The notes below the pieces were generated by a model. That model did not search any database. It had not been told where the DNA came from and saw nothing but the letters and a program-made list of their open reading frames with translations. From Planotetraspora silvatica (GTDB lineage Bacteria; Actinomycetota; Actinomycetes; Streptosporangiales; Streptosporangiaceae), in NCBI RefSeq assembly GCF_016863315.1, contig NZ_BOOQ01000047.1:1-64000 (forward strand): a DNA stretch of 64,000 bases. Direction: 5' to 3'. Shown here one piece after another: positions 23,035 to 43,821 of the stretch (the stretch's first letter is position 1; each line of letters opens with the position of its first letter). The position numbers were made by a program, and so were the translations under genes.

Positions 23035-24420
23035 CTAGAAGCCGGCCGTGATGCGCGTGAAGTCCCAGTTGCCCTGGGAGGTGCCGCTGCAGGTCTCACT
23101 GACGCCACCGCCGGGGCACGGCCGGTCGCGGTTGACCGACCAGAAGGCCAGGCGGGTGAGGCCCTTGGACTTCGCGTAGTCGCGGATCTGGGTCCAGGTT
23201 CCGGTGGAGGTCATCTCCTGCTGGTCGGACACGCCGTTCATGCCGGAGATGCCCATGTGCGAGTAGGCCTGCGCGTCGGTCCAGCCGTACGCGCTCTTGA
23301 GCGCGTTCTTCAGGCCTTCGGACGCGTTGACCGTGCTCTGGTACATGTTCGAGCCGCCGCCGAAGTCGAATGGCATGATCGTGAAGTTGTCGACGGGCAC
23401 GCCGAGCGCCCTCGCCTGGTTGATCAGCCGGATGCCGTCGTCGGTCGGGCCGGTGGTGCTGGTGCCGAAGGTCAGCGCGACCTTGACGTTGGGGTTGTTC
23501 TGCTTGACGATCTTCAGGCCGTTGAGGATGCGGTCCTGGACCGTGTAGTTCGAGAACTCGTCGGTGTTCTCGATGTCGAAGTCGACCACGGCGGGGCCGA
23601 CCGCGTTGATGACCTGCTGGACCGCGTTGGCGTACGCCGACGGGGACGAGCAGTTGGGGCCGAGCTTGTTGCCGGACCAGCCGCCGAACGACACCTGGAC
23701 GCTGCCGCCCGCGTTCTTGATGGAGGAGATCGTCTGCGCGTCGACACCGCCGGTCAGCGGCCTCGCGCCGTCCCACATCGGGTTGCAGCCGCCGCCCGAC
23801 AGGATGAACGCCATGGTGAAGGACTTGACTCCGGTGGAGCTCATCACCGAGGTCGCGCTGGGCGGGCTGCCCCAGCCCATGTAGAGGTAGGGCGCGCCGG
23901 GCATCTTGGCGCCGGTGGGAGGCGGCGGGTTGGTGCCGCCACCGCTCGGCAGCGTCCAGCGCTGGTTCGACCCGGCGAAGCAGTCCCAGATCTGGAGCGG
24001 GGTGCCGTCGGCCGAGCTGGGGCCGGTGGCGTCCAGGCACTTGCCGAGAGCGCGCAGCGTGCCGTCGGAGTTCGCGGTCCACGACTGGGCGGCCGAGCCG
24101 TTGCAGTCGTAGATCTGCACCTTCGTGCCGTTGGCGCTGCTGGCGGCGGCCACGTCGAGGCACTTGCCGAGGGCGCGGATCGTGCCGTCGGCACCGACGT
24201 TCCACGACTGGGCCGCGGTGCCGTTACACGTGTAGAGCTGGACCTGTGTGCCGTTGGCGCTGCTGGCGGCCGCCACGTCGACGCACTTGCCGCCGAGGCC
24301 GGTGATCTGGCCGGTCGCGGCCATCGCGGGGGTCAGGCCGGTCGCGATCAGAGGGAGTGACGCGACCAGGGAGCCGAGGAGCAGCCGGAGCCGGAGCCGG
24401 CCGGAGCGTTTGGGGTTCAA
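23035..24420 (-). CDS. Secreted GH18 chitinase with N-terminal ricin-type (CBM13) lectin
   Basis: A 461-residue secreted enzyme. A signal peptide (about 1-35, ending TGLTPAMAA) is followed by a CBM13/ricin B-like domain (about 38-155). This has three QxW-type repeats (AAQSWNV, AAQSWTA, NQRWTL). A Pro-rich linker leads to a GH18 catalytic domain whose DxDxE motif is AVVDFDIENTDEF. It should bind and hydrolyse chitin or related beta-1,4-GlcNAc polymers outside the cell. The TTG at 24420 is preferred because an AAGAGG site lies 8 bp upstream and it gives a clean signal peptide. The lectin module is nearly identical at the DNA level to that of the neighbouring GH30 gene. Confidence 0.9.
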   Translation of the reverse strand: MNPKRSGRLRLRLLLGSLVASLPLIATGLTPAMAATGQITGLGGKCVDVAAASSANGTQVQLYTCNGTAAQSWNVGADGTIRALGKCLDVAAASSANGTKVQIYDCNGSAAQSWTANSDGTLRALGKCLDATGPSSADGTPLQIWDCFAGSNQRWTLPSGGGTNPPPPTGAKMPGAPYLYMGWGSPPSATSVMSSTGVKSFTMAFILSGGGCNPMWDGARPLTGGVDAQTISSIKNAGGSVQVSFGGWSGNKLGPNCSSPSAYANAVQQVINAVGPAVVDFDIENTDEFSNYTVQDRILNGLKIVKQNNPNVKVALTFGTSTTGPTDDGIRLINQARALGVPVDNFTIMPFDFGGGSNMYQSTVNASEGLKNALKSAYGWTDAQAYSHMGISGMNGVSDQQEMTSTGTWTQIRDYAKSKGLTRLAFWSVNRDRPCPGGGVSETCSGTSQGNWDFTRITAGF

Positions 24421-24540
24421 GGGGGATGCCTCTTTTCTGAGAGGGGTCAACGCTTCGACTGCGAGGTGAAGAAGAGGTGAGGGGTGAGGACCTCCCGGGA
24501 TCCGCCTTCCGCGTCGCCGGGTGGGCAGCCCCGACAACTG

Positions 24541-24560
24541 TTAGGAAGGTTTCTTTATAA
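24541..24560. promoter_or_regulatory. AT-rich promoter element upstream of the chitinase gene
   Basis: TTAGGAAGGTTTC followed by TTTATAATTAC is an imperfect palindrome (TTAGGAA against TTTCTTTA) in an otherwise GC-rich gap. It lies about 120-140 bp upstream of the chosen chitinase start. Similar TTAGGAAA-type boxes occur before glycosidase genes in actinomycetes; the regulator here is not known. Confidence 0.35.
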
Positions 24561-24649
24561 TTACTGAGCCGTAGTTAACTCCGGCGAACCGGGATGAGTC
24601 AAGAGTCCGGTTGATGTTCATGGAGCCGGGAGTCGACTCGAGCGTGGAG

Positions 24650-26503
24650 TCAGGCCTGGACGGTCCACTTCTGGTTGGAGCCGCCTGTGCAGTCCCAGAT
24701 CTGGAGCGGGGTGCCGTCGGCCGAGCTGGGGCCGGTGGCGTCGAGGCACTTGCCGAGAGCGCGCAGCGTGCCGTCGGAGTTCGCGGTCCATGACTGGGCG
24801 GCCGAGCCGTTGCAGTCGTAGATCTGCACCTTCGTGCCGTTGGCGCTGGCGGCGGCCGCCACGTCGAGGCACTTGCCGAGGGCGCGGATCGTGCCGTCGG
24901 CACCGACCGTCCATGACTGGGCGCTCGATCCGTTGCACGTGTACAGCTGGACCTGTGTGCCGTTGGCGCTGCTCGCGGCCGCGACGTCGACGCACTTGCC
25001 GCCGAAGCCGGTGATGGCCTTGCCGCCGGGTCCGGGACCGCCGCCCGACTGGGTGCCGGCCCAGGTGAAGGTGGCGGAGGTCTTGGTGGGCAGGCTGTAG
25101 GTGAACGACTGGCCGCCCCAGTTGACCTTGACCGTCTGGGTGCCCCCCGTCGTGTTGTAGGCGATGAGCGCCTTGGACCCGTCGGGGTTCTTCCACGCCA
25201 CGTTCTTCACCGCGGAGTTCGCGGTGGAGTCGATCCGATACGCGCCGGGCCGTACGAACTTGGTGAGGTGGCCCATCGTGTAGTACTCGATCGTGTAGTC
25301 GACCTGGCCGCTCCGGCCGTCGCCGTTGTGGACGGTGATCAGGCCGGTGCACGTGTCGCAGCCGCCGTTGTGCGGGCCGTGGTTCTGGTCGACGGCGAGG
25401 CTCCACTTGACCCAGCTACGGTCCCAGTTGCGGGTGTAGTCGATCAGGTTGTTCATGTCCTCGGTCTGCTGGTTCGCGATCCACGTCCCGCCCGAGTGTT
25501 CGGTCATGTACGCGTTGACCTGGGGGTACTGGTTGTGCACCGTCGTCTGGGTGGCGACGTCGCCCCCGTACCCGTGCCAGGCGATCCCGCCGAACAGCGG
25601 GTCGTTGCGGATGGCGGTGTCGGCGAGCAGCGGGGCGGCCCAGGTGTTGTAGGCGTCCCAGTTCCAGTCGTTGACGAGCGTCTTGGTGGTGATGCCGGCG
25701 TTGCGGAAGGCCGGCCACAGCGCGCTCTTGATGAAGTACTGGATGCCGGAGGTGTTCCACTGCATCGACGGATATCCGGCGCAGCAGGTGGGCTCGTTCT
25801 GCACCGACACGTAGTCGATGGGCACACCCTGCGCCTGGTAGGCCTGGATGTACTTCGCGAAGTACTCGCCGTACAGGCCGTAGTACTGCGACTGGAGCCA
25901 GCCCTGGTTCAGGGAGTTGTTGTCCTTCATCCACGCGGGCGCGCTCCACGGCGAAGCCATGACCTTGAGCGCCGGGTTGAGCGCCCTGGCCTGCTTGGTC
26001 AGCGGCAGGACGTCGGCGAGGTCGTGGTTGATCGAGAATCCGTTGAGGTCGCAGCAGGTGTCGTCGAAGGAGTAGTTGTTCCTGGCGAGGTCCGAGGAGC
26101 CCAGCGGGTTGCGGATGAAGCTCAGGCCGATGCCGTTGACGGGGTCGAACAACTTCTGCATGACCGAGGTGCGGGTGCTCGCACTGAGTGCGCCGCTGCT
26201 GTTCATCAGCCACGCGGCGGTGTCGGTGAACGACGCTCCGCCGCCCTCGAACTGCTGGTAGGTCGCGTTCTCGTTGACGGTGATCGTCTGGGCCGCCCCG
26301 GGACTCGTGGCGGCGAAGGACACGGGCGTCTGCTGCTGGAGCCCTCTGGTGACGGTACGGCCTCCGGAGTCGGAGGTCGTGGTGAGCCAGATGTCGACGC
26401 TCTCGCCCGCGGCCTGGGCGGCGGGGGCGCCGACGACGGTCAGCGCGCCGGCGGCCACCAGCAGGGCGGCGGGCAGCGCAAGGCGGAATCTTCGGAAGGG
26501 CAT
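24650..26503 (-). CDS. Secreted GH30-family glycosidase with C-terminal ricin-type (CBM13) lectin
   Basis: A 617-residue secreted protein. The signal peptide is about 1-31 (MPFRRFRLALPAALLVAAGA to AAQAA). The GH30 (beta/alpha)8 domain spans about 35-400. The acid/base glutamate lies in VSVQNEPTCC and the nucleophile in YMTEHSGG, and QQFEGGGASFTDTAAW is a family landmark. A beta-sandwich region follows, then a Gly-Pro linker and a CBM13 domain (about 500-617) with three QxW repeats. GH30 members act on beta-1,6-glucan, beta-1,6-galactan, xylan or glucosylceramide; the choice is not clear here. Its lectin module matches that of the chitinase almost base for base. A GAGGGAG site supports the start. 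Confidence 0.88.
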   Translation of the reverse strand: MPFRRFRLALPAALLVAAGALTVVGAPAAQAAGESVDIWLTTTSDSGGRTVTRGLQQQTPVSFAATSPGAAQTITVNENATYQQFEGGGASFTDTAAWLMNSSGALSASTRTSVMQKLFDPVNGIGLSFIRNPLGSSDLARNNYSFDDTCCDLNGFSINHDLADVLPLTKQARALNPALKVMASPWSAPAWMKDNNSLNQGWLQSQYYGLYGEYFAKYIQAYQAQGVPIDYVSVQNEPTCCAGYPSMQWNTSGIQYFIKSALWPAFRNAGITTKTLVNDWNWDAYNTWAAPLLADTAIRNDPLFGGIAWHGYGGDVATQTTVHNQYPQVNAYMTEHSGGTWIANQQTEDMNNLIDYTRNWDRSWVKWSLAVDQNHGPHNGGCDTCTGLITVHNGDGRSGQVDYTIEYYTMGHLTKFVRPGAYRIDSTANSAVKNVAWKNPDGSKALIAYNTTGGTQTVKVNWGGQSFTYSLPTKTSATFTWAGTQSGGGPGPGGKAITGFGGKCVDVAAASSANGTQVQLYTCNGSSAQSWTVGADGTIRALGKCLDVAAAASANGTKVQIYDCNGSAAQSWTANSDGTLRALGKCLDATGPSSADGTPLQIWDCTGGSNQKWTVQA

Positions 26504-26724: not shown

Positions 26725-28038
26725 TCAGGGAGCCTCGATGCCGCCGTCGGGGCGCCGCACCCGGGTCGACCAGCGTTCGTGCAGGTGGGTGAGCGGCGGA
26801 TGCTCGGCAGCCAGCTTCTCGTCCAGGTCGATTCCCCAGCCGGGGGCCTGGTTCGGGTACAGGTAGCCGTTGACCGGGCCGAGCGTGCCGGGGAAGACCT
26901 CGTGGACGATGTCGGGATACACGTGCCCCTCCTGGATCTGGAAGGCCGGGGTCGTCACGTCCAGCGCCACATTGGCGGCGGCGCCGACCGGGGAGACGTC
27001 GGCCGGCGAATGCCAGGCCGTACCGACTCCGATCAGCTCGCACAGCGCGACCAGCTTGCGCGTCGGGGTGGCGCCGCCCACCGCGGAGACGTGGAGTCGC
27101 AGCAGGTCGACGCCGCCGTCGCGGACCAGTCGCGCCGCGTCGGTGACCGAGCTGATCTGCTCGCCCGCCGCGATGGGCATCGGCGCGGCCGCGCGGACCT
27201 CGGGAAGGCGGTCGTAGAACTCCGGTGCGATCGGGTCCTCAAGGAAGAACAGCCGGTACGGCTCCAGCGACCTGGCCAGGGCGATGGCCTGCTTGGGCGT
27301 GAGCCGGGAATGCACGTCGTGCATCAGGCCGGGCTCCTCACCCAGTTCGCGGCGGGCGCGCTCGAACAGCCCGGGGGTGTCACGCAGGTAGCGCTGCACA
27401 TCCCAGCCGTCGGGGTACGGCGAGCCGGCGTAGCCGCCGGGCGAACCGGGCGCGCCGTAGTGACCGAGCCCGGGGGCGCCCACCTGGAGCCGCACGTTCC
27501 GGTATCCCAGGGCCAGGATCGCCGCGGCCTCCTCGATCGTCTCCTCGACCGTCGCCCCTCCGGCGTGCAGGTACGTGTCGGCCGCGGCGCGCACCCGCCC
27601 GCCCCAGAGTTCGTGGACGGGCATGCCCGCGCGCTTGCCGGCGATGTCCCACAGTGCCTGGTCGACGCCGGACAGGGCGCTGTTCAGGACCGGGCCGCCG
27701 CGCCAGTAGGACGAGAAGTGCACCATGCGCGTGATGTCCTCGATGTCGGCCGGATGGCGGCCGATCAGGAGGGGCCCGACGTGCTGGTCGACCGCGGCCG
27801 CCACGGCGTGGAAGCGCTGGGTGAACGTCGCGCATCCCAGGCCGTACAGGCCCGGCTCGCTGGTATCGACCCGTACGACGACCAGGGGCGGCCCCTCGGG
27901 AGCCGTCACGATCGCGCGGACCCGGGTGATCCGCAGGGCGTCCCGGTCCGGCCAGGGCGCGGGGAACTCGGGGGAGGGGAACTCGGCCGACGGGGGCGCC
28001 GCTGATCCGGCCGTGACATCTCCAGCGTGCTCGGTCAT
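26725..28038 (-). CDS. Enolase-superfamily sugar-acid dehydratase, mannonate dehydratase (ManD/RspA)-like
   Basis: A 437-residue enolase-superfamily protein. The N-terminal capping domain includes RGGPVLNSALSGVDQALWDI. The barrel domain shows the ManD-type metal and catalytic elements: LMHDVHSRLTPKQA, LFFLEDP, AAGEQ, HVSAVGG and HSPADVSPVG. The C-terminus reads APGWGIDLDEKLAAEHP, typical of ManD/RspA proteins. These dehydrate aldonic acids such as D-mannonate to 2-keto-3-deoxy acids. The ATG at 28038 has a GGGGGAG site; the in-frame extension upstream overlaps the operator-like repeats and is rejected. The substrate could differ from mannonate. The 220-bp gap on its 3' side (26504-26724) holds only a pair of TCAGTTCACC direct repeats. 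Confidence 0.87.
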   Translation of the reverse strand: MTEHAGDVTAGSAAPPSAEFPSPEFPAPWPDRDALRITRVRAIVTAPEGPPLVVVRVDTSEPGLYGLGCATFTQRFHAVAAAVDQHVGPLLIGRHPADIEDITRMVHFSSYWRGGPVLNSALSGVDQALWDIAGKRAGMPVHELWGGRVRAAADTYLHAGGATVEETIEEAAAILALGYRNVRLQVGAPGLGHYGAPGSPGGYAGSPYPDGWDVQRYLRDTPGLFERARRELGEEPGLMHDVHSRLTPKQAIALARSLEPYRLFFLEDPIAPEFYDRLPEVRAAAPMPIAAGEQISSVTDAARLVRDGGVDLLRLHVSAVGGATPTRKLVALCELIGVGTAWHSPADVSPVGAAANVALDVTTPAFQIQEGHVYPDIVHEVFPGTLGPVNGYLYPNQAPGWGIDLDEKLAAEHPPLTHLHERWSTRVRRPDGGIEAP

Positions 28039-28067
28039 CGCGACTCCCCCTGTGGTGTGCGAGCTGC

Positions 28068-28112
28068 CCGTACAAGCTGTGCCGTACAAGCTGCACCGTA
28101 CAAATCGATTTG
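28068..28112. promoter_or_regulatory. Operator-like repeats upstream of the ManD-like gene
   Basis: Three direct copies of CCGTACAA at 28068, 28082 and 28096 (period 14 bp, the first two extended by GCTG) run into a perfect 12-bp palindrome CAAATCGATTTG at 28101-28112. The palindrome has the central CG typical of LacI-type operators. Both elements lie 30-75 bp upstream of the gene start. Confidence 0.5.
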
Positions 28113-28530
28113 CATTCGTAGATCGCGAGCAGTTTTTCCCGGACTCCTCGCCTTGTCAACGGCCCGGCCTCGACCCGGAGGAGTGCCTTGTGCGACGCCG
28201 GCGGCCGCCTAGAGCCGCTCTCGTGACAGACACGGACATCGAGTCGCCCGGCGACCGACGCCCACTTCTCGGCGATCATCGAGCCGGCCGGGATGGGTCC
28301 CCTCGGCCGATTCCGCCCTTTTCCGGCGATGCGTGAGAAATGGGGCTCTCGTGCTAGAGAGGGTCTCGTTGTGCCCAAAATGCTAATTATAGGTTTATGG
28401 TGAGTTCGCTGCTCAAAGCATTCTGAGTCGTAACCCCAGGGGCGACGCCCATAGAGTGACTTCCTGCTAGCGTAAGCCCTCTACCGTCCTCGCGGCATTC
28501 TCGAATGCCCGTTCGCATTGGTCGTGGGTT
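28113..28530. other. 418-bp promoter gap between the ManD-like gene and fxsA
   Basis: No gene is seen. An AT-rich segment at about 28361-28420, within otherwise GC-rich sequence, is the likely promoter region of the fxs operon. No confident -35/-10 pair could be assigned. Confidence 0.4.
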
Positions 28531-28704
28531 ATGAGCACTACTGCAATGACGCAGTTCAACGTGGCATCGAATGTCACGGATCTCCGGGACATTCCGCTGT
28601 CTCTCGTTCCCGCGTCCGATGTCGACCGTATTCTTGGACGTGTCCTTCCGGAGGCCGCGCCCGTCGAGTCGGTCTCCGTGGCGGCTTTCAACTCGTCGAT
28701 CTGA
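28531..28704 (+). CDS. fxsA: FxsA precursor peptide of an FxSxx-COOH RiPP
   Basis: A 57-residue ORF, below the usual gene-calling size limit. The protein starts MSTTAMTQFNVASNVTDLRD and ends VAAFNSSI, so its last five residues are F-N-S-S-I-COOH, exactly the FxSxx-COOH pattern that defines this peptide family. A LRDIPLSLVP segment in the centre probably serves in leader recognition. The acidic, unmodified leader is followed by a C-terminal core. The ORF is preceded by an in-frame stop and no other start, ends 15 bp before the radical SAM gene and has the same direction. FxsB-type maturases form a three-residue cyclophane on such cores. This is family knowledge; the modification here is an inference. 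No strong ribosome site is seen. Confidence 0.9.
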   Translation: MSTTAMTQFNVASNVTDLRDIPLSLVPASDVDRILGRVLPEAAPVESVSVAAFNSSI

Positions 28705-28719
28705 CCTCTAGGGGGGCCG

Positions 28720-31011
28720 GTGAACGGGCCCTTCACGCCATTCCGGCAATTCGTGGTCAAAGTACACAGTCGGTGCGATCTCGCCTGTGATCACTGCTAT
28801 GTCTACGAACATGCGGATCAATCATGGCAAGTACGTCCGAAAGTCATTTCGGACGAAACGGTCGCATGGTCGGCCGGTCGGATCGCGGAGCATGTAAAGC
28901 GACACGGCCTCGACCGCGTGCATATCGTGTTGCACGGCGGTGAACCGCTTCTCGCGGGCCGGGCCCGGCTGGCGCGCATCATGGCCGAGCTGCGTGGCCG
29001 ACTCGACGCGTTGTGCGATCTCGACCTTCGCGTCCACACCAACGGCGTGTTGCTCGACGACGCCTTCCTCGACGTCTTCGCCGAACACCGGGTGCTGGTC
29101 GGCATCTCGCTCGACGGCGACCGGATCGCCAACGACAGACACCGGCGCTACGCCGACGGTCGTAGCAGCTATGAACGCGTGATCCGGGCCGTCGAACTGC
29201 TGCGCCGACGTCGCGATCTGTATGCGGGTCTGCTGTGCACGATGGACGTCGCCAACGATCCGCTCGCCGTCTACAGGGCGCTGTGCGAGCTGGACCCGCC
29301 CCGCATCGACTTCCTGCTCCCGCATGCGACCTGGGACGCGCCTCCTCCGCGGCCGACTGAGACCGCCTACGCCGACTGGCTCATCCGGATCTTCGACGCC
29401 TGGATCGAAGAGGGGGCCAGGGTGCCGGTGCGCATGTTCGAGTCCATTCTGCGCACCAGCCGGGGAGAATCCAGCCTCACCGAATCGCTCGGCCTCGAGC
29501 CGGCCGACCTCGTCGTCATCGAGACGGACGGGGCCTACGAGCAGGCCGACTCCTTGAAGGTCGCCTTCGACGGGGCGCCTTCCACGGGGCTGAACGTCGT
29601 CACCGACGACCTCGACACCGTGGCCGCGCACACCGGCATCCTGGCCCGGCAGGAGGGACTCGGCGGGCTGTGCGACACCTGCCGGGCATGCCCGGTGGTC
29701 GAAAGTTGCGGCGGCGGCCTGTACGCGCACCGGTACCGGACGGGGTCCGCCTTCGCGAACCCGAGCGTCTACTCGGCTGATCTCCTCAAGCTCATCACTC
29801 ATGTCAGGCACAGGATCGCCATGCCCACGCACGCCCTGCCGTACGACACGATCGAGGCTCTCGCCGCCGGGTACGGCGGCGACGACGACATGCAGCACCT
29901 TCTGGCGGGGCAGCGGACGCTGCGTCGAGGACTCCTTGCCGGAGTGCACACCCATCATTCCGCTGCCGAGGGATGGGATCTGCTGACCCGGCTCGACGCG
30001 GAGCATCGTCCCGCTGTCGACGCGGTGCTGGATCACCCTTATGTCCGGGAATGGGCCGCCCGGTGCCTGACCGGCGGCGGGAGCCCCGGCTACCTCGCGA
30101 ACATCGCCGCCGCGGCCGCCGTCAAGGCAGGCGTCGACACGGAGATCACGCTGCAGGACGTGGACGGGGTCTTCCATCTGCCGACCCTGGGCGCGTTCGA
30201 AGCGGCGCGGGGCACCGACGCCCGGTTGCTCGTGAAGGACGAGCGGTTCACGCTGGCGGGGACTCCGGACGCCGTCTGGCATCCCGTGAGGAAGCTTCGG
30301 GCGAACGGATTCGAGGTCATCCTGGAGGACACCGATCCGCACCGTCACTGCCATGGTCATCAGACGGCCGGGCGCCTGTCCGAGGAGGAGGCCGGCGCGT
30401 GGCAGCGGGCGTTCGCCGACGCGTGGTCGCTGATCGAGTCCGATCACCCCCACTACGCGGCAGGGCTGCGTGGGGCTCTGTCCACTGTGGTCCCTCTGAC
30501 TCCTCCACCAGTCGGCGGGGACGCCAGTTCGGCGGCCAGGCACGCGTTCGGATCCGTCGCCATCGCCCTGCCCAAGGACGCGGCCACGCTCGCTCTCCTG
30601 CTGATGCACGAGTTCCAGCACGTCAAGCTCGGAGCGGTCCTCGACATGGTCGACCTGTACGACCGGCAGCACGCGGGCCTCTATTACGCCCCCTGGCGTC
30701 CCGACCTACGCCCGCTCGAGGGTCTCCTGCAGGGGACCTACGCGCACCTGGCCGTCTCGGACTTCTGGCGGGTGCGGCGCAGCACCGTGGCGGGTCAGAG
30801 CGATGTCCAGTTCGCCCTGTGGCGCAAGCACACGGCCGACGCGATCGAATCGCTCGACACCTCGCGGGCGCTGACCCCCCTGGGGCTGCGTTTCCTGGCC
30901 GGCATGCGGCGGTCCGCGGAGCCGTGGCTCGCCGAACCGGTTCCCCGTGAAGCGATCGACGCGGCCGCGGAACTGGCGGAACGGCATCGAGCGGCCTCAG
31001 GCGCCGAGTAG
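28720..31011 (+). CDS. fxsB: FxsB: radical SAM/SPASM peptide maturase fused to an HEXXH domain
   Basis: A 763-residue maturase. The radical SAM cluster CDLACDHCY (Cys19, Cys23, Cys26) binds the 4Fe-4S/SAM cofactor. A SPASM-type auxiliary cluster region follows at Cys318, Cys321, Cys324 and Cys330 (CDTCRACPVVESC). The C-terminal half contains HEFQH at 630-634, the metal-binding HEXXH motif typical of proteins linked to FxSxx peptides. Family knowledge predicts C-C cross-linking (cyclophane formation) on the FxsA core; the HEXXH domain may add an oxidation or processing step. The GTG at 28720 has an AGGGGGG ribosome site 4-10 bp upstream and 15 bp of spacing from fxsA, so the two are one operon. 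Confidence 0.95.
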   Translation: MNGPFTPFRQFVVKVHSRCDLACDHCYVYEHADQSWQVRPKVISDETVAWSAGRIAEHVKRHGLDRVHIVLHGGEPLLAGRARLARIMAELRGRLDALCDLDLRVHTNGVLLDDAFLDVFAEHRVLVGISLDGDRIANDRHRRYADGRSSYERVIRAVELLRRRRDLYAGLLCTMDVANDPLAVYRALCELDPPRIDFLLPHATWDAPPPRPTETAYADWLIRIFDAWIEEGARVPVRMFESILRTSRGESSLTESLGLEPADLVVIETDGAYEQADSLKVAFDGAPSTGLNVVTDDLDTVAAHTGILARQEGLGGLCDTCRACPVVESCGGGLYAHRYRTGSAFANPSVYSADLLKLITHVRHRIAMPTHALPYDTIEALAAGYGGDDDMQHLLAGQRTLRRGLLAGVHTHHSAAEGWDLLTRLDAEHRPAVDAVLDHPYVREWAARCLTGGGSPGYLANIAAAAAVKAGVDTEITLQDVDGVFHLPTLGAFEAARGTDARLLVKDERFTLAGTPDAVWHPVRKLRANGFEVILEDTDPHRHCHGHQTAGRLSEEEAGAWQRAFADAWSLIESDHPHYAAGLRGALSTVVPLTPPPVGGDASSAARHAFGSVAIALPKDAATLALLLMHEFQHVKLGAVLDMVDLYDRQHAGLYYAPWRPDLRPLEGLLQGTYAHLAVSDFWRVRRSTVAGQSDVQFALWRKHTADAIESLDTSRALTPLGLRFLAGMRRSAEPWLAEPVPREAIDAAAELAERHRAASGAE

Positions 31012-31043
31012 GTCCCACCACTTTTTCTGGGGTTTCACGATCG

Positions 31044-31072
31044 CGGCCTTTCCTCGCAAAGGCCGTGTTTCT
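31044..31072 (+). terminator. Hairpin plus T-rich tail between fxsB and fxsC
   Basis: CGGCCTTT (31044-31051) pairs perfectly with AAAGGCCG (31058-31065) and is followed by TGTTTCT. Just after it, TATAGT near 31073-31078 resembles a -10 box. It may be a terminator or attenuator, with a separate promoter for fxsC-fxsT. Confidence 0.5.
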
Positions 31073-31097
31073 ATAGTGAAAGCCCGGAAGGAGGCGG

Positions 31098-32312
31098 ATG
31101 ACGACTCCCCAGTCCTCGGCTCAGTCCTCGGGGCCGTACTTCTTCCTCAGCTACGCGCACGTGCCGCCATATGACCTCACCGACGGCGGCGATCCCAACC
31201 AATGGGTGGAAAAGCTGTTCAAGGTGCTCTGCGAGCACATCATGCATCTGACCCGGGTGCCCGCCGGAGCGGCCGGCTATATGGACCGGGAATTACGCGT
31301 CGGCGACAACTGGCCCCAAATGCTTTCGGAACGCCTCTCGAGTTGCCGGGTTTTCGTGCCTCTGTACTCACCGCGCTACTTCGAGAGTGATCACTGCGGC
31401 AAGGAATGGGCGGCCTTTCTCGACCGGGCACAGGGGCACACCGGGCCGGTGGCGATCCTGCCGGCCATCTGGGCTCCCATGCGGTCGATGACTCTTCCGC
31501 GGGCGGCCCAGGCGATTCAGTTCAACCACTCGGACCTCGGCTCCCGATACGCGGACGAGGGCTTCTACGGGATCATGAAGCTCAGCAAGTATCGGAACCA
31601 GTACCAGACGGCCACCTGGGGCCTCGCCCAGCGGATCATCGAAGTGGCGGAGACGTCCCCCATGCCGTACGGCAAGATCCGCGACTACACAGCCGTGCCG
31701 AGCGCCTTCACCGACCACACACCCGAGCGTCCGGTGACCGTCACCGTCGTCGCTCCCGACCTGCGCCACCTGCCCGAGGGGCGGGACGCCTACCACTACG
31801 GACGCACACCGCACGAGTGGGACCCGTTCCGCAGCCGCAACGGGATGCGCCCCCTCGCCGACTGCGCGGAGGATGTGGCACGTTCCCGCGGCTTCCTTCC
31901 TCATGTCGGCACCCTTGAGGATCACGGCGGCGAACTGGCGGCGGAGACGCCGCAGGCTCCGGCCGTGATGCTGGTGGACCCCTGGGCCACGACGCAGGAG
32001 GAGTGCCAGGAGTCGCTGCGACCGGTGAACCGGCCGGGTCGGCAGTGGATCTCCGTCATGGTGCCGTGGAACCGTGACGACCAGGAGACGGTCGAGCATG
32101 AGCCCCGGCTGAAGGGGCACCTCAGGGAAGCTCTCGGGCACAAACTGGCGGAGCCGGCGGCCGAGACGGACGTACGGAGCCTCGAGTTGTTCCGAAGTCT
32201 GTTGCCCGAGGCTCTGCACAAGGCGACCCAGCAGTACTTCAAGCACGCGCCCGCCTATCCACCAGAGGGCGCGAGAGTCGACAGACCCCGGCTGGTCGGG
32301 CCAGAGGAGTAG
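31098..32312 (+). CDS. fxsC: FxsC: TIR-like protein of the FxSxx-COOH system
   Basis: A 404-residue protein. The N-terminal TIR-like domain (about 12-170) starts GPYFFLSYAHVPPYDLTDGG. It contains the loop and helix pattern of TIR folds, including SCRVFVPLYSPRYFESDHCG followed by KEWAAF with the conserved Trp-Glu positions that carry NAD-hydrolase activity in enzymatic TIR domains. The C-terminal half (about 215-400) is the FxsC-specific region of unknown role. A GAAGGAGG ribosome site precedes the ATG. The next gene, fxsT, begins 2 bp after its stop, indicating tight coupling. Whether it cleaves NAD or acts as an adaptor is not known. Confidence 0.93.
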   Translation: MTTPQSSAQSSGPYFFLSYAHVPPYDLTDGGDPNQWVEKLFKVLCEHIMHLTRVPAGAAGYMDRELRVGDNWPQMLSERLSSCRVFVPLYSPRYFESDHCGKEWAAFLDRAQGHTGPVAILPAIWAPMRSMTLPRAAQAIQFNHSDLGSRYADEGFYGIMKLSKYRNQYQTATWGLAQRIIEVAETSPMPYGKIRDYTAVPSAFTDHTPERPVTVTVVAPDLRHLPEGRDAYHYGRTPHEWDPFRSRNGMRPLADCAEDVARSRGFLPHVGTLEDHGGELAAETPQAPAVMLVDPWATTQEECQESLRPVNRPGRQWISVMVPWNRDDQETVEHEPRLKGHLREALGHKLAEPAAETDVRSLELFRSLLPEALHKATQQYFKHAPAYPPEGARVDRPRLVGPEE

Positions 32313-32314
32313 GC

Positions 32315-35300
32315 ATGAGCGAGGGCCGGATCGTCACCTTCTACTCGTACAAGGGCGGCACCGGGCGCACGATGGCGCTGGCCAACACGGCGTGGATCCT
32401 TGCCAGCAGTGGTAAGCGGGTCCTGGTCGTCGACTGGGACCTCGAGTCGCCCGGATTGCACAAGTTCTTCCGACCATTCCTCGACACCGGCACGGTAGCG
32501 ACCACCTCCGGGGTCATCGACCTGATCACGACCTACCAGTGGGCGGCGATGAAGCCGGGGGCCCGCGCCCGCGAATGGCATCGGCAGTACGCCCGCGTGG
32601 AACCGCACGCCGTCTCGCTCGACTTCGAGTTCCCCGGCGAGGGCACCCTGGACTTCATCTCGGCCGGCAGGCAGAACCGTGACTACTCCTCCCTGGTCTC
32701 CGGTTTCGACTGGGACACCTTCTACGAACGCCAGGGCGGCGGGCAGTTCTTCGACGCGCTGCGCGAGGACATGAAGGCCTGCTATGACTACACGCTCGTC
32801 GACAGCCGTACCGGGCTGAGCGACATCGCGGAGATCTGCACCATGCAGATGCCCGACGTCCTCATCGCGTGCTTCACCCTCTCCGACCAGGGCATCGACG
32901 GCACCTCGTCGGTGGCACGGCACATCGACGATCGTTACGGCGAGCGCAACATCCGCATCCTCCCTGTGCCGATGCGCATCGAGACGGGCGAGAAGGAGAA
33001 ATGCGACGCGGGACGGACCCTGGCCAAGCGCAGGTTCGACAAGTTCCCGCGCGGGTTGACCCAGGAGGAGATCGACCGGTACTGGGGCGCCGTGGAGATC
33101 CCGTACACGCCCTTCTACGCCTTCGAGGAGATCCTGGCGACCTTCGGCGACGAGCCGGGTCGGCCGAGCTCCATGCTCGCCGCCTTCGAGCGGTTGACCG
33201 GCGTGATCACCGAGGGGGAGGTCGTTTCCTTCCCGCCGCTCGAGGAGTCCACGCGGATCCGCTATCTCGACACCTTCACGCGCCGCCACCCCACACACCA
33301 GACCGACGTCTACCTCAGCTACACGTCGAAGGACCGGATGTGGACGGACTGGATCGCCGCTCTGCTGGACCGATACGGCTACCGGGTGTCGCTGCGTGAG
33401 GTGGACTCCGACGAGGCCCTGGATTTCGCGGGAGACTCCCCGCGTACGGTCGTGGTGCTCTCTGACGCCTACATCCGCTCCTCCCGCAGCCACGAGGTGT
33501 GGCAGCGGCTCACGGAGGCGGAAGGTGCCGTCCGCGGCGAGCTGATTCCGATTCGGGTGTCCGAATCGCACTTTCCCTCGCCGTTCGGCGACCGTGCGCT
33601 CTCCGATCTCACCAGGATCGCGGAGCACACGGCCGCGGAGCGGGTCCTCAAGGCGTTCGGACGGATCGAAGAAGGGTCGGTGCTGGACACGACGGGGCTG
33701 GGGGCCCGGTATCCGGGAAGCGTGCCCGCGGTCTGGAACGTCTCCGACCGCAACGCGGTCTTCACCGGGCGGGGGGCCGTCCTCGACGAGTTGCGCACCC
33801 AGCTGGTGGGGGGCAGTTCCGCGGTGGTCCTCCCGCAGGCGCTCTACGGTCTCGGCGGGGTGGGCAAGACCCAGGTGGCGCTGGAGTACGCCCACCGGTT
33901 CCGCGCCGACTACGACCTGGTCTGGTGGATCTCGTCGGAGGATCGCGAGCGGATCAACTCGACCTTCGAGGAGCTCGCCCGTCAACTGCACATCCCGGTC
34001 GCCGACAACATCGCGGAGGTCGTCGCCGCCGTGCGTGAGTCGCTGCGTCTGGGCAACCCGTACGGCCGCTGGCTGCTGATATTCGACAATGCCGGCGACC
34101 CCGAGGACCTGAGGGGATTCTTCCCCGGCGGTTCCTCCGGCCACATCCTCATCACTTCGCGCAACCAGGCGTGGTCGGCCGTGGCGGCCCCTCTCGAGGT
34201 GGACGTCTTCAGCCAGGAGGAGAGCCTCGAGCACCTCAGCCGACGGGTGCCAGGACTGGCTTCACCGGATGCGATTCGCGTCGCCGAGGCCCTCGGCAAC
34301 CTGCCGCTCGCCGTCGAGCAGGCCGCGGCGTGGCTGGCGGAGACCGGCATCCCGGCCGTGACGTTCCTGGAACAACTGGAGACCGAGGCGGCCCGGGTGT
34401 TGTCCATGACGCAGCCGGCCGACTATCCGCACCCAGTCGCCGTGACCTGGAACCTGTCACTCGGCCGGCTCAAGGAGAGCTCGCCCGCCTCGGTTCGCCT
34501 CCTCCAACTGTGCGCCTTCTTCGCGCCGGAGCCGATCTCGATGCAGCTCCTCTACAGCGACGAGATGATGGAGTCGCTGCTTCCGTACGACGACACCCTG
34601 CGTGAGAAGCTCGTCCTCGGCCGTGTCATCCAGGAGATCGGCAGGTTCGCCCTGGCCAAGGCCGATCAGGGCAACAACACGATTCAGGTGCACCGCCTGG
34701 TCCAGGCCGTGATCCGAAGCCAGATGACGCAGGAGGAGCAGGACGAGGCCTGCCACGAGGTCCATCGCATCCTCGTCGGCGCGAGACCGCGCCAGGGCGA
34801 CGTGGACGACCCGGAGAACTGGATCCGCTACGACCTGATCTGGCAACACCTCCAGCCGTCGCGTGCAACCGAATGCACGGAGGAGGAGACCCGGCAACTG
34901 CTCACCGACCGTGTGCGGTACCTGTGGAAGCGCGGCGACTTCGACAGCGCTCTCGCGCTGGGCGACCGTCTCGCGAACTTCTGGGAGTCGGTGTTCGGAA
35001 TCCACGACAGGCAGCGGCTCCATCTGCTGTTCAACGTGGCCAACGTCAAGCGCTCGCAGGGCAAGTACGAGGAGGCGCGCGACCTCGACACGTGGGTCCG
35101 GGAACAGCAACTGCAGGTCGTCGGGGAGCGCCATCCGCACACGCTTCTCACCGCGGGAGGGCTCGCGGCCGACCTCCGCGGTCTGGGGGACTACCAGAAC
35201 TCGCTGGACATGGACAAGGTGACCTACCAGCAGTGGAAGACGCTGTTCGGCCAGGACCACCCGCGTACCCTCGCCTCGGCCAACAACCTCGCGCTGTGTT

Positions 35301-36205
35301 ACCGGCTGGTCGGCGACGCTGTGAGCGCGCGCGACCTCGACCACGACACCCGCCAGCGCCGGAACAGGGTGCTCGGCGGGAATCATCCGTACACGTTGTT
35401 CTCCGCCGCTCAGCTGGCCCGCGACCTGCGCGAGATCGGGCTCTATCGCGACTCGGTGGATCTCCTGCGCACAACCCTGCAGCACTATCGGGAGTCGCTC
35501 GGCGAGTCCTTCGTCGACACTCTGCGGGCGGCCAAGAGCCTGGCCGTCTCGTTGCGGAGGGCGGGCGAACAGACGGAGGCGTGGCATCTGGCCAAAGACA
35601 CAGAAGAGAGGTACATGCAGCGGTACGCCGGCACGCCGGACGCGCTCGCGGCGAGGCTCGAACTCGCCTGCTGCATGTCCGCTCTGGGCGACAAGACCGG
35701 TGCGCGTGACCTGGCAGGGGAGATCGCCCGCATCTATCAGGACACCCTGGGGGAAAATCACCCGGGAACGCATATCGCGCTGAACAACCTGGCGATCTAC
35801 CTGCGCGGAACCGGGGAGAACGCCAGGGCGGAGAGCATCGCGAGGACGTCGTACGAAGGGCTCCACTCCCACCTTGGGGCGGATCATCCCTTCACCCTGT
35901 CGGCGGCGATCAACCTCGCCAACTGCCTGGGCGACGAGGAGCGCCTGGCGGAGGCCGAGACGCTGGAACGTCGGACGCTCGGGGATCTGCGCGAAAAGCT
36001 GAGCGACACGCATCCGGACACACTCGCCTGCGAGGCCAACCTGGCGGTGACCCTGCGGTCGAACGGGCAGGTCGCCCAGGCAGAGCAGTTACGGGGACGC
36101 CTGCTCCCGGTCATGGGCCGGATCCTGGGTGACAACCACCCGACCTTGGTCTATCTCAAGGAGTGGCGGCGAATCAACAGAGACCTCGAGCCTCAGCCGT
36201 TCTGA
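32315..36205 (+). CDS. fxsT: FxsT: MinD/ParA-like ATPase-TIR-NB-ARC-TPR protein of the FxSxx-COOH system
   Basis: A 1296-residue multidomain protein. Residues 1-300 form a MinD/ParA-like ATPase with a deviant Walker A (KGGTGRT, 13-19) and LVDSRTGLSDIAEICTMQMP. A TIR domain starts near 331 (DVYLSYTSKDRMWTDW). The NB-ARC/STAND NTPase has Walker A GLGGVGKT (512-519), Walker B LLIFDNAGD and HILITSRNQ. From about 870 to the end there are TPR repeats with the recurrent HPxTL pattern. It resembles STAND signal-transduction ATPases that oligomerise on ligand sensing. An AGGAG site overlaps the FxsC stop. The gene is convergent with the hydrolase after it, 2 bp apart. The ATPase-TIR-NB-ARC-TPR order is the notable feature. 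Confidence 0.94.
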   Translation: MSEGRIVTFYSYKGGTGRTMALANTAWILASSGKRVLVVDWDLESPGLHKFFRPFLDTGTVATTSGVIDLITTYQWAAMKPGARAREWHRQYARVEPHAVSLDFEFPGEGTLDFISAGRQNRDYSSLVSGFDWDTFYERQGGGQFFDALREDMKACYDYTLVDSRTGLSDIAEICTMQMPDVLIACFTLSDQGIDGTSSVARHIDDRYGERNIRILPVPMRIETGEKEKCDAGRTLAKRRFDKFPRGLTQEEIDRYWGAVEIPYTPFYAFEEILATFGDEPGRPSSMLAAFERLTGVITEGEVVSFPPLEESTRIRYLDTFTRRHPTHQTDVYLSYTSKDRMWTDWIAALLDRYGYRVSLREVDSDEALDFAGDSPRTVVVLSDAYIRSSRSHEVWQRLTEAEGAVRGELIPIRVSESHFPSPFGDRALSDLTRIAEHTAAERVLKAFGRIEEGSVLDTTGLGARYPGSVPAVWNVSDRNAVFTGRGAVLDELRTQLVGGSSAVVLPQALYGLGGVGKTQVALEYAHRFRADYDLVWWISSEDRERINSTFEELARQLHIPVADNIAEVVAAVRESLRLGNPYGRWLLIFDNAGDPEDLRGFFPGGSSGHILITSRNQAWSAVAAPLEVDVFSQEESLEHLSRRVPGLASPDAIRVAEALGNLPLAVEQAAAWLAETGIPAVTFLEQLETEAARVLSMTQPADYPHPVAVTWNLSLGRLKESSPASVRLLQLCAFFAPEPISMQLLYSDEMMESLLPYDDTLREKLVLGRVIQEIGRFALAKADQGNNTIQVHRLVQAVIRSQMTQEEQDEACHEVHRILVGARPRQGDVDDPENWIRYDLIWQHLQPSRATECTEEETRQLLTDRVRYLWKRGDFDSALALGDRLANFWESVFGIHDRQRLHLLFNVANVKRSQGKYEEARDLDTWVREQQLQVVGERHPHTLLTAGGLAADLRGLGDYQNSLDMDKVTYQQWKTLFGQDHPRTLASANNLALCYRLVGDAVSARDLDHDTRQRRNRVLGGNHPYTLFSAAQLARDLREIGLYRDSVDLLRTTLQHYRESLGESFVDTLRAAKSLAVSLRRAGEQTEAWHLAKDTEERYMQRYAGTPDALAARLELACCMSALGDKTGARDLAGEIARIYQDTLGENHPGTHIALNNLAIYLRGTGENARAESIARTSYEGLHSHLGADHPFTLSAAINLANCLGDEERLAEAETLERRTLGDLREKLSDTHPDTLACEANLAVTLRSNGQVAQAEQLRGRLLPVMGRILGDNHPTLVYLKEWRRINRDLEPQPF

Positions 36206-36207
36206 GG

Positions 36208-37074
36208 TCAGGCGGCGGACAACCAGGTCAGTACGTCCGGCAGGACGCCGAGGGCGCCGAAATGTGCGGCGCCCTCCTGAATGACCACGCGGGCCCCAGG
36301 GATCTGCCGGCCGAGCCAGCGGGAGTGGTCGACGGGTGAGAACACGTCCTCGTCCCCGTGCCACAGCAGCGTCGGTACAGAGATGTCCGCCGGCTGGAAT
36401 CCCCATGGCGAGGTGAACGCCAGGGCGTCGTCGACCCACCCCGCCGCAGAGGTCCGGACGGCCTCCGCGAAATTGTGGGCGAGCATCAGGCGGATTCCGA
36501 AGTCCGCCATGACGTACCTGTCCGGTTCGGGGAGGTCGTCGTCGAAGGCGGGCACCAGCCGGGTCGGATCCGCTCGTATCCGCTCCACGGTGGGCGAGAG
36601 CAGTTCCATCATCGCGGCGTGACCGGTCTCTGCGGCCTTGTGCTCGATGACGTTGGACGGCGTCATGCCGTTGAACCAGTCCAGCCCTTCCGCTTCTCGT
36701 GGCGCCAGGGCGACGAGGGCGGCCACGCGCGTCGTCCTCTCGGGCAGCAACCCGGCGCAGGCCAGCGCGTGCGGAGCCCCTCCTGAGCGGCCGATCACCG
36801 CGAAGCAGTCGATGTGAAGAGCGTCGGCGATGGCTTCCACGTCGCCGGCGGCGTCGGCGACGGTCCGGCCCCTCCTCCGGTCGGACAGGCCGTACCCGGG
36901 CCGGTCATAGCTGATCAGCCTGATGCCGAGCCGGTAGAGGACCGACGCGCGCGGAAACGGCCCCAATCTGCTCCCCGGTGTGCCGTGTAACAGGAAGACC
37001 GGGCTCCCCTCCGGCTCACCCCTCTCGTCGACTGCCAGCGTCCGTCCGTCATGAGCCTTCACGAACGTCGTCAA
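36208..37074 (-). CDS. Alpha/beta-fold hydrolase
   Basis: A 288-residue alpha/beta hydrolase. The oxyanion-hole motif is HGTPG (about 31-35), the nucleophile elbow IGRSGG and the acid site HGDEDVFSP. The histidine is in GAAHFG near the C-terminus. No signal peptide is present. It is convergent with fxsT (2 bp gap) and so is not part of the fxs operon. Substrate unknown; esterase, lactonase and dehalogenase are all possible within the fold. The 194-bp gap before the next gene (37075-37268) appears empty. Confidence 0.9.
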   Translation of the reverse strand: MTTFVKAHDGRTLAVDERGEPEGSPVFLLHGTPGSRLGPFPRASVLYRLGIRLISYDRPGYGLSDRRRGRTVADAAGDVEAIADALHIDCFAVIGRSGGAPHALACAGLLPERTTRVAALVALAPREAEGLDWFNGMTPSNVIEHKAAETGHAAMMELLSPTVERIRADPTRLVPAFDDDLPEPDRYVMADFGIRLMLAHNFAEAVRTSAAGWVDDALAFTSPWGFQPADISVPTLLWHGDEDVFSPVDHSRWLGRQIPGARVVIQEGAAHFGALGVLPDVLTWLSAA

Positions 37075-40183: not shown

Positions 40184-43100
40184 TTACACGAGCGACTTGT
40201 AGTTCTTCCAGCCGGTGCCGATTCGGGTTTTGGTTCCGAAGGTGCTGTGGGTGTTGCCGGAGTAGCGGTAGAGGTTGCCTGCGGTGTCGCGGGCCAGGAG
40301 GTCGTTGTGACCGTCCTGGGTGAGGTCACCGATGCCGACGACGGCGTTGTAGCCCTTGAATCCGGAGCCGATCTTGACGCGACTGCCGAAGCGGTTCTTG
40401 CCGCCGAACCAGCGCCACAGGTTGCCGGATTTGTCGGTGCCGATCATGTCGCCTCTGCCGTCGCCGTTGAGGTCGCCGACGCCGACGAGCTTGGTGTAGC
40501 CGGCCTGGCCGGTGGCGATGCGGACTCGGGCTTTGAAGGCGCCCTTGCCGGTGGCGGCGTAGAGCCACAGGGCTCCGGCCTTGTCGCGGGCGACCAGGTC
40601 GTCGTGCCCGTCACCGGTCAGATCGCCCGGGGAGGTCAGCAGGTTGTACCTGTTCCAGCCCGTGCCGATCAGCGTGTACTTGCGCGAGCGCGAGAAGAAC
40701 GGCAGGCCCGTGCCCCGGTACACCCGAACTGCGCCTTTGGAGTCACGGACCAGCATGTCCGCGTACCCGTCGTCGTTGAAGTCGCCGATCGGCACCAGCA
40801 ACGACGAGGTCGGCCAGTTGGCGGTATAGCCGGACTTGCTCAGGGTCTTGTTGGAGCCCGTCCACGAAAGCGCCTTACCGTCCGTCCGTACAGCCACCAG
40901 GTCGGGAACGCCGTCGCAGTCGTAGACATGGACAGGCGTACGGCCGCAGTACACGGTGACGGCGCCGCTGCCCACTTGCACAGCGGTGGTTCTCCCGTCG
41001 TACTTGGCGGACAGCTTCCAGGTGTACGCCCCGCTGTCGGGGATGGCGCCGTTCGCTTCCTTGCCGTTCCACGAGACGACGATGGGGCCGTCGCCTCGTG
41101 GGGCCGTCCCCCGCAACGTCGCCACCCGGCGACCGGTGATCTTATGGAAGGCGCTCATCTCCCAGGAGTCCACCGGGCGGCTCAGCCAGATTTCGGCGTA
41201 CCAGGGTATAGATCCCCTCGGCCTGACGATGGCCGGTGTCTGCATCGTGCCGATCACGGGCGCGGAGTTCGCCACACCGTCGACGTGTACGTGCACGCGG
41301 CCCGCGTCGTCCAGGTAGGCGATGTGGCCGCTGTACTTGTCCACAGCCCAGGTGATTCTGCGGTCGTCCTTGAGCTTGCCCGCCGGCAGGGCGACCAGAA
41401 CGCGTTCCGCGATCGGGCTGCCGGTGTGGAAGTCGGTGAGCTTCAACGCACCGGTATTCCGGTCATGTCGAACGACGTAGCCGTCCCCGAGCATGGACGG
41501 CCCCGAGGGCACCGCGAACCCATGGTTTTTCGCCAGGTCGTACACCCCGGCCTGCTTGCCGTCCCCGCAGGACCAGTAGAGCCAGCGGGCGCTCGCCTGC
41601 ATCTCGGTCGGCACACAGGCGACGCCGGTCTTCACCGTGCGGACCGGCTTGCCCGGGGTGGAGGCGTCAAGTGTCAGCTTCTCCGCCGTCACCGTGCCGG
41701 ACGTGCTTGTGGATGCGCTCCACAGCGTGTCGTACCAGAGAGCCGCAGCCTGCACGGGACGGCTGCGCACGATCTTGCCGTGGTCCGGAGCGATGACGTA
41801 CTGCGTCTTCGGATTGATGCCGTCGACCACCACATAATCGGCGGACGCGTCTACGACCTGTCTGCTGGTGATGTCAGGGATGCCCGGCTCCGCGCGGTCA
41901 GGCAGTTGGGTCTTCGTGTGAGACGGGCGGGTCTCAAGGTAGGTCAGACCGTCCGCCCCGGTCAGGTACGAAACCCCGTTGCGATTGCCTTCCACCGTCC
42001 GCACGCACTGGGAACCCACCGCACACTTCGCGATGGAATAGGCATCCGCGTACACCGACTCTGAATCACCCGCGACAGGTATCGCTCCGATGCCCACGTC
42101 ACGCTGATCAATGCCGATCTCGCTCTGGGAGGTGTCCACCACGGTGAGTTCGCCTCGGTAGAGGTTCAGTCCCAGCACCTGGGCGGGCAGGGGAGGCAGT
42201 GGTTCGATCACCTTTTGCGTCAACGTTCCGTCGGAGCCTTCGGTGAACCGGCGGATCGCCCAGTCGTCGATGCCGGAGCCGCCGACCGACAGCACGCTTC
42301 CGTCCACCGCCCTGTTCAAGTTCGTGTAGTGACTGAGCAGGGTCTTCGGCTCGCCACCGTCGAGCGGCCGGGCCGTCACCCGCCGACCGAGATAGGCGTG
42401 GGGGTCGGTCTCCGGCTCCGAGGTCAGGAGGGTGCCGCCGATGAGTGCCTCGGGTCTCGAATCCGCAGGGTAGGAGAACTCCCGCGCCGGGGCCGAAGGG
42501 TCGTCGCGGGGCACCCAGTGCAGGGTGTGGTCGGCCGCCTGCCACCAGGCGAGACGGTCGGAGCTGAGCATGACGTGAGTGTCCCAGCCCCCCACGTCTC
42601 CGGGTATGGGCGTGAAGACGGCGGTGGCGGCGTCGAGTACGGCGTAGTGGTACGTACCGCCGTGGCCGTAGAGGATCACCGCGGACCGATCGTCCGCGGC
42701 GCCCCGCTGGACCTCCTGATAGCTCAGAAACGCCCCCGAGGGGATTCCAGTGATGGGGAGAGAACCCGTGGATCCGGGGGCGGCGTCGATCAGGACCCCT
42801 GACCGGCCTCTCGCCGTAGGGGTGTTGTCGAGCGCCAGCATCTTGTCGCCGATGGTTCCCATGAAGCGGTAGTTCGGCGGCAGTTGCACGTCATGCTGTT
42901 CGCCGGTGTGCGGATCGAGCGGGGTGACCCACCCGGCTCCTTGCGTCGGGCTCGGCGACAGGACGAGTTGGACGTCTCCCGCGCCGATCGCGTAATGCAG
43001 GGAGCCGGTCGGCAGCCAGGCGACCGGCACGCTCGTCGACTCGCCGGATGCGAAGTCGGTCCAGGCCGGGGTGTCCGCGGTCTCGTCCTGGTGAAGGAAG

Positions 43101-43330: not shown

Positions 43331-43821
43331 GGATCCTCCTTGGTGATGTCTCGAGGCTGCGTGGTACAGCGGAGGACGGCGCGGGATCATCGAACCATGA
43401 GCTTGTCGCCGACACGATCTCCGCTCGGTTGGGACCCCGAGGGCAGCGCAGCCGTCATGACGACCCGTGGATGGATCTTCGTCGTGTCGGCCGGTGGGTG
43501 GAAAGGGCTGCCGGGTTCACCGTCATGAGGGAGGACGGCCGACAGGCCCGGGAGAGTACGGCGCAAGGCTGCCTCTTCTTGGGGGGAGGAGAGAGGCAGC
43601 AGAATACCGTTCCAAAGCGAAAAAACAAGGCCATTAATGCGTATACGACTCGTACTTATCTATTACGGCAAGAGCCGCATATCGGTCATCAGCACCTCGC
43701 TCACCGCATGTGTACGGCCGGCGCTCTGACACTACGACGCCCTGCAGTCGATCGCCGATCTCGTCGACGGAGCCGCCGGAACGAACTGAGGGCGCGACGG
43801 CAGACCGCAGCGCCGGTCATG
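43331..43821. other. 490-bp gap without a supported gene
   Basis: No coding frame is convincing in this interval between the FG-GAP gene and the kinase gene. It contains an AT-richer stretch near 43600-43690. The open frame running through it on the plus strand is antisense to the kinase gene and looks like a shadow. Confidence 0.5.

Follow-up and report, generated by a model that had tools for sequence, protein, structure and literature searches.

The 64,000-nucleotide (nt) stretch of Planotetraspora silvatica DNA analyzed here (the window) carries a complete fxsA-fxsB-fxsC-fxsT locus at positions 28531 to 36205, which is an ordinary member of the FxSxx-COOH systems, with a fused FxsB (i.e., "type I," a label of our own). 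All four genes lie on the + strand: fxsA (28531..28704; a precursor peptide of 57 amino acids [aa] ending in FNSSI), fxsB (28720..31011; 763 aa, from a GTG start; a radical SAM/SPASM-HExxH maturase), fxsC (31098..32312; 404 aa; a TIR-like protein with a further domain at its C terminus), and fxsT (32315..36205; 1296 aa; a KGGTGR-type ParA-like domain followed by TIR, NB-ARC, and TPR regions). The fxsA stop and the fxsB start are 15 nt apart. The three larger proteins exceeded the curated NCBIfam cut-offs (i.e., FxsB, 580.1 bits against TIGR04269 [cut-off, 370] and 166.5 bits against the mod_HExxH model TIGR04267 [cut-off, 40]; FxsC, 195.5 bits against NF040588 [cut-off, 130] and 140.4 bits against TIGR04276 [cut-off, 55]; FxsT, 1048.7 bits against NF040586 [cut-off, 300] and 147.3 bits against AAA_KGGVGR [cut-off, 90]), and Pfam matches were obtained for TIR_2 in FxsC and FxsT and for NB-ARC and TPR in FxsT. 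An earlier note, made from the letters alone, had proposed a complete fxsABCT locus in which a 57-residue open reading frame (ORF) ending in FNSSI directly precedes fxsB, and a TIR-like protein and then an ATPase-TIR-NB-ARC-TPR protein follow; the gene positions and the model matches bear this out. The fxsABCT genes are named as a system in NCBIfam and are outlined in an eLife paper of 2020 (PMC7159879). This kind of system is thus already known, and what the sequence comparisons suggest in addition is a covariation that hints at the site of the hydroxylase domain and a linked hydrolase gene.

FxsA matched the FxSxx-COOH precursor model TIGR04268 with an E value of 6.7e-6 and a score of 26.2 bits, so that the family match expected in the earlier note was found at 1.8 bits below the curated cut-off of 28; Pfam gave no match for FxsA. 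The peptide has the small size and the F-x-S-x-x-COOH end of these precursors. The small ORF that the earlier note expected before fxsB in relatives was present in all 80 fetched relatives, where, under looser rules, its end lay no more than about 200 nt from the fxsB match (tails: FxSxx in 76, FQASI in 4). Under a stricter rule (i.e., a Met start, 40 to 90 aa, an F-x-[SA]-x-x end, and a position at the fxsB start), such an ORF was found in 77 of the 80 relatives versus 16 of 8820 control windows (290 nt each); the FxsA-like ORF before fxsB is not there by chance. The core F-N-S-S-I-COOH (28687..28701, + strand), a predicted Phe-Ser cyclophane, is conserved among precursors: Phe was found in 202/202 and Ser at core position 3 in 189/202, although both counts are biased by the FxSxx pattern with which most of these precursors were found. 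The remaining precursors have Ala (10/202) or Asn (3/202) at position 3, and Ser is not strictly required there. FxsA sequences ending in FQASI, with Ala for the expected Ser, were seen in Acrocarpospora and Herbidospora (L020, L025, L028, and L032).

The radical SAM domain of FxsB has its closest solved relative in the radical SAM domain of ChlB (PDB 9gm3; E value, 1.1e-84), and the C-terminal half of the protein matched the solved domain 22nu (E value, 9.5e-78) and, weakly, the ChlH structure 8s5f (E value, 6e-4). Its HExxH motif is intact (HEFQH; residues 630 to 634; 30607..30621, + strand); this motif and the score against TIGR04267, the current NCBIfam name of which is peptide beta-hydroxylase, place FxsB in the HExxH peptide hydroxylase family as far as sequence can tell. 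We take MscB to be an enzyme of the FxsB family. The link made by MscB is C4(Phe)-Cbeta(Ser) (review PMC11002830), and by analogy the radical SAM domain is expected to form a Phe-Ser cyclophane on F-N-S. The characterized HExxH relatives are alpha-ketoglutarate peptide hydroxylases, one of which is fused to a radical SAM domain; the residues hydroxylated within this family are His, Asp, Phe, Gln, and Pro, and backbone cleavage at Ala is a second activity of one pair (PMC12636437, PMC13060819). PosC/PflC combine Gln hydroxylation with a cut at Ala; given an Ala-to-Val variant, PosC hydroxylated Val (PMC12636437). Since the relatives hydroxylate, and one pair cuts the backbone oxidatively, a further modification or cleavage of FxsA by the HExxH domain is likely. 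The product named in the earlier note, a cross-linked C-terminal peptide recognizable by a loss of 2 Da at F-N-S, agrees with the expected cyclophane but ignores the intact hydroxylase domain, because of which the mass change probably goes beyond a loss of 2 Da.

To ask which precursor residues go with the HExxH state, we compared 205 different fused FxsB proteins, taken from a scan of the genome collection and from class, Streptomyces, and family samples. The motif was kept in 124 of them and missing in 81, and FxsA was located for 123 and 79, respectively. The sampling was biased both ways (an intact HExxH is favored by one of the seed peptides, LMHEFQHV, whereas the HExxH-less model NF040587 supplied the Streptomyces set), and the proportion of 81/205 is therefore not a prevalence. 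Precursors were found by the FxSxx pattern in 157 rows and otherwise by a hidden Markov model (HMM) of our own and by eye (i.e., batches of 13 and 5 outside the pattern, plus the HMM hits). Excluded were the 3/205 fused proteins for which no FxsA was found, L220 (639 aa, under the limit of 640), 2 loci lacking a radical SAM hit, identical proteins, and 30 duplicates, as well as tails at L025, L032, and L074 that were spurious. On a tree of the radical SAM domain alone, the HExxH state changed 8 times, as it did on a second tree built with a mixture model; parsimony gives the number of changes and not their direction, so that "losses" is our reading. An earlier tree of 157 fused rows had 3 changes only and thus no power, and the Streptosporangiaceae loci were then added to reach 8.

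In these 202 systems, the five residues just before the core (V-S-V-A-A in the window; positions -5 to -1; 28672..28686, + strand) go with the HExxH state. V/I/L stands at -3 in 114/123 systems with HExxH versus 15/79 without and at -5 in 102/123 versus 15/79, and Ala stands at -2 in 108/123 versus 5/79 and at -1 in 106/123 versus 4/79. Tracking was assessed by sign tests on independent pairs at 11 positions, with uncorrected p values. On the first tree, 6.1 pairs changed the same way at -3, 0.0 the other way, and 1.9 showed no difference (median p, 0.031; range, 0.016 to 0.125); the values at -5 were 6.1, 0.1, and 1.9 (median p, 0.031; range, 0.008 to 0.375), and the median p values at -2 and -1 were 0.22 and 0.25. 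At -8, -7, -6, -4, x (+1), +3, and +4, the first-tree sign tests showed no tracking. On the mixture-model tree, the -2 position gave 2.7 pairs the same way, 0.5 the other way, and 1.8 with no difference. The trend is consistent but weak, and it is suggestive rather than proof. Because the residues of V-x-V-A-A go with HExxH loss and the ring Asn/Gln does not, the comparison suggests the segment just before the ring as a site of action, or of docking, for the HExxH domain. The same reasoning led to the true site in the pes cluster, where a Pro confined to clusters encoding the HExxH enzyme proved to be the target of that enzyme (PMC13060819).

An alpha/beta-hydrolase gene (36208..37074, - strand) is convergent with fxsT, and its linkage in relatives makes it a likely fifth component of the fused-FxsB loci. 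It adjoins fxsT in 67 of the 80 loci with enough sequence; the other 13 have a partial hydrolase match about 1 kb off (6 loci), one elsewhere in the locus (1 locus), or none (6 loci). Ser97, Asp243, and His271, taken as a putative catalytic triad, are kept in 67/67. We also searched 60 genomes of the same family, selected for their FxsB content, with best score deciding the standalone-only group. A hydrolase relative at E<1e-90 was found in 20/20 genomes with fused FxsB and in 0/20 genomes with standalone FxsB only and 0/20 genomes lacking FxsB; in 15 of the latter 40 genomes, 40 of a larger number of candidates were scored, so that a relative may have been missed there. Nine of the 40 have weaker relatives (E values of 1e-42 to 6e-66). 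The 64 loci not classed as fused had no hydrolase relative within the stretch examined, and the hydrolase matched none of the FxSxx-system models in NCBIfam. Section 24 of PMC7159879 does not name it; elsewhere, that paper places alpha/beta-hydrolases with caspases in other systems.

TIR domains head the PDB matches of the AlphaFold2 model of FxsC (predicted local distance difference test score, 84.1; predicted template modeling score, 0.59; best fold match, a TIR domain with an E value of 9.2e-4), and a sequence search of PDB found no FxsC relative. Figures for the partners come from 128 of 157 FxsC and 79 of 129 FxsT hits (i.e., uncut proteins over the length limit). In FxsC, Glu occupies the catalytic position (Glu103) in 120/128 proteins; in the TIR domain of FxsT, Glu at position 394 was found in 21/79. 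The NB-ARC P-loop Lys of FxsT is present in 79/79, and in the KGG.GR motif of its ParA-like domain, Arg replaces the Walker Lys in 79/79 full-length proteins. The FxsT TPRs match those of kinesin light chains. Kinesin light chain TPRs bind peptides. We infer a receptor with a scaffold TIR that acts, gated by the peptide, on an enzymatic TIR partner (i.e., FxsT on FxsC).

The reading that these results point to is as follows. The radical SAM/SPASM domain of FxsB would join Phe53 to Ser55 of FxsA, as its characterized relatives suggest. The alpha-ketoglutarate HExxH domain would next act on V-x-V-A-A before the ring, as the covariation and the known HExxH chemistry suggest, either by hydroxylation of Val/Ala or by an oxidative backbone cut at Ala that would free a short cyclophane peptide. 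The mature peptide would most likely work intracellularly, binding or gating FxsT (a TPR-containing STAND receptor), and FxsT would control FxsC, a TIR protein that mostly has Glu at the catalytic position; the hydrolase probably processes or inactivates the peptide or its product. We give this reading as a whole (i.e., the cross-link, HExxH action at V-x-V-A-A, gating through FxsT/FxsC, and the hydrolase as a further part) a probability of about 0.5. A bolder version would make the locus a five-gene peptide-gated TIR-receptor system in which FxsB cross-links the precursor and trims it oxidatively at V-x-V-A-A to a tiny (e.g., pyruvoyl-capped) cyclophane that gates FxsT/FxsC, with the hydrolase as an off-switch or last processing enzyme; this version is quite unlikely in all its details. 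The bioactivities of triceptides have not yet been elucidated according to a 2025 paper (PMC12257519), and the locus joins a predicted peptide of the triceptide type to NLR-like proteins.

Several observations weigh against this reading. On the mixture-model tree, only 5 pairs lie on well-supported branches, and the result at -3, one-sided as it is (4.1 the same way, 0.0 the other way, and 0.9 with no difference), has a median p of 0.125; the p values are uncorrected over the 11 tested positions. HExxH-less rows with part of the motif exist (A-A in L244, Ala at -2 in L330 and L335, and Val at -3 in L305), as does Ala at -2 in the HExxH-less L220, dropped for its length, and some rows with an intact HExxH have another residue at -2 (Trp in L242, Met in L313, and Val in L329). 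V-x-V-A-A might serve for docking and not itself be where the reaction takes place. FxsC lacks the Glu in 8/128 proteins, and we take the Glu positions of FxsC and FxsT to be the catalytic ones from a motif of the TIR signature, not from a structure. Of the 79 HExxH-less rows, 65 belong to a single clade, in which V/I/L at -3 persists in 14 rows. With p values of only 0.03 to 0.125, uncorrected, this concentration would also suit changes in V-x-V-A-A that reflect common descent or drift independent of the domain. Seven more HExxH-less lineages count against such an account, as -3 is changed in 7/8 lineages (the tree being read by eye) and in 51/65 rows of the large clade, and no pair at -3 runs in the opposite direction; we regard common descent or drift as unlikely, though as an explanation to be taken seriously.

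The HExxH domain might instead hydroxylate the ring residue x (Asn/Gln) of Phe-x-Ser, by analogy with relatives that modify Asp, His, or Gln. Chemistry on polar residues is known in the family, and x is Asn/Gln in 116/123 intact systems versus 51/79 without HExxH; the pairs, however, show 0.5 changes the same way, 0.4 the other way, and 7.1 with no difference on the first tree and 0.4, 0.5, and 4.1 on the mixture-model tree. We set the ring residue aside as the preferred site because neither tree shows its state tracking HExxH loss, and we consider such a role for it unlikely. A plain zinc metallopeptidase that hydrolyzes FxsA and frees the C-terminal peptide is what Kaur et al. state for this domain (PMC7159879, section 24, citing Haft and Basu 2011). 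The covariation before the core would suit cleavage there just as well as hydroxylation, and PflC also showed leaderless proteolysis (PMC12636437). The characterized relatives, including the one fused to a radical SAM domain, are nevertheless alpha-ketoglutarate hydroxylases (PMC12636437, PMC13060819), and TIGR04267 now bears the name peptide beta-hydroxylase; plain hydrolysis appears improbable to us. Secretion of the mature peptide as a toxin or antibiotic, with FxsC/FxsT serving immunity or regulation, would accord with the proposal of a toxin or signal by Kaur et al. (PMC7159879) and with darobactin, a cross-linked radical SAM-dependent ribosomally synthesized and posttranslationally modified peptide that is active on Gram-negative bacteria (PMC9055067). 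Profile searches found no exporter-family match among fxsABCT and the adjacent hydrolase gene, and FxsC and FxsT resemble effector and sensor proteins, which makes a secreted product rather improbable. An intracellular peptide that gates FxsT/FxsC is the reading that we prefer.

Among described systems, the locus agrees with the FxSxx-COOH/fxsABCT system (TIGR04268, TIGR04269, NF040588/TIGR04276, and NF040586) in having all four genes in order and an F-x-S-x-x C terminus; it differs in an FxsA just below the model cut-off and in the linked hydrolase, which lies outside the NCBIfam models of the system. The standalone AP-ATPase peptide-processing system of Kaur et al. 2020 shares the precursor, the radical SAM/SPASM domain, and the zincin-like domain, and its TIR-AP-ATPase-TPR protein with an inactive MinD/ParA-like domain corresponds to FxsT; the zincin-like domain is read there as a peptidase, however, and section 24 contains neither the hydrolase nor the acetyltransferase-like gene described below (PMC7159879). 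FxsB is akin to the triceptide maturases (3-CyFE) MscB, XncB, and OscB and also ChlB, which are SPASM radical SAM enzymes that form three-residue cyclophanes, and F53-S55 of FxsA would fit the triceptide definition (i.e., a C-C link from an aromatic residue i to the Cbeta of residue i+2). The model matched by FxsB, TIGR04267, is named for alpha-ketoglutarate HExxH hydroxylases such as ChlH, PosC/PflC, PesO, and BpmH; the site suggested for FxSxx systems differs in being the segment before the ring.

The closest FxsB relatives in the genome collection are from Planotetraspora (89% identity). Each of the 163 plasmid records matching FxsB has <60% identity. A conserved segment lies directly 5' of fxsA (28466..28530, + strand), with TAGCGT and then GTTCG.ATTGG before the ATG; its columns are invariant in 8/8 aligned sequences (i.e., the window and sequences of Planotetraspora, Streptosporangium, and Microbispora). 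The gene upstream of it (26725-28089) is not part of the conserved block in a comparison of 4 Streptosporangium/Microbispora loci. The PADLOC anti-phage models gave no match for FxsA or FxsC and no typical named defense system; FxsB matched pVip (viperin) models (38.6 and 20.2 bits), and FxsT matched the candidate models PDC-M28B. Between fxsB and fxsC, 76 of 157 loci (e.g., L034 and L177) have an AAC(3)-family acetyltransferase-like gene, which has no counterpart in the window. Raw counts that do not consider the tree place it in 36/92 loci with HExxH and 40/65 without, and the two examples scanned (L034 and L177) scored below the NCBIfam AAC(3) cut-offs.

The same genome has a second FxsB-family gene, a standalone one with a 419-aa open frame and a separate HExxH gene adjoining it. 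At L113, on contig C32 of this genome, a second Fxs-like system combines a standalone FxsB and a separate HExxH protein with a small ORF ending in AGFQSAL and, on the opposite strand, an FxsT-like gene. FxsA was located at only some of the standalone-FxsB loci. A precursor-like ORF with two GNFNSFI repeats stands beside a standalone FxsB at L132, where no HExxH gene was found within about 5 kb. Elsewhere in the window, the - strand encodes a protein of 1068 aa (40184-43390) that carries FG-GAP repeats at its C terminus and matched no NCBIfam model, as well as a pair of lectin-domain proteins (23035-26503), one of which is also endo-1,6-beta-glucanase-like; similar DNA segments are present in both genes of this pair.

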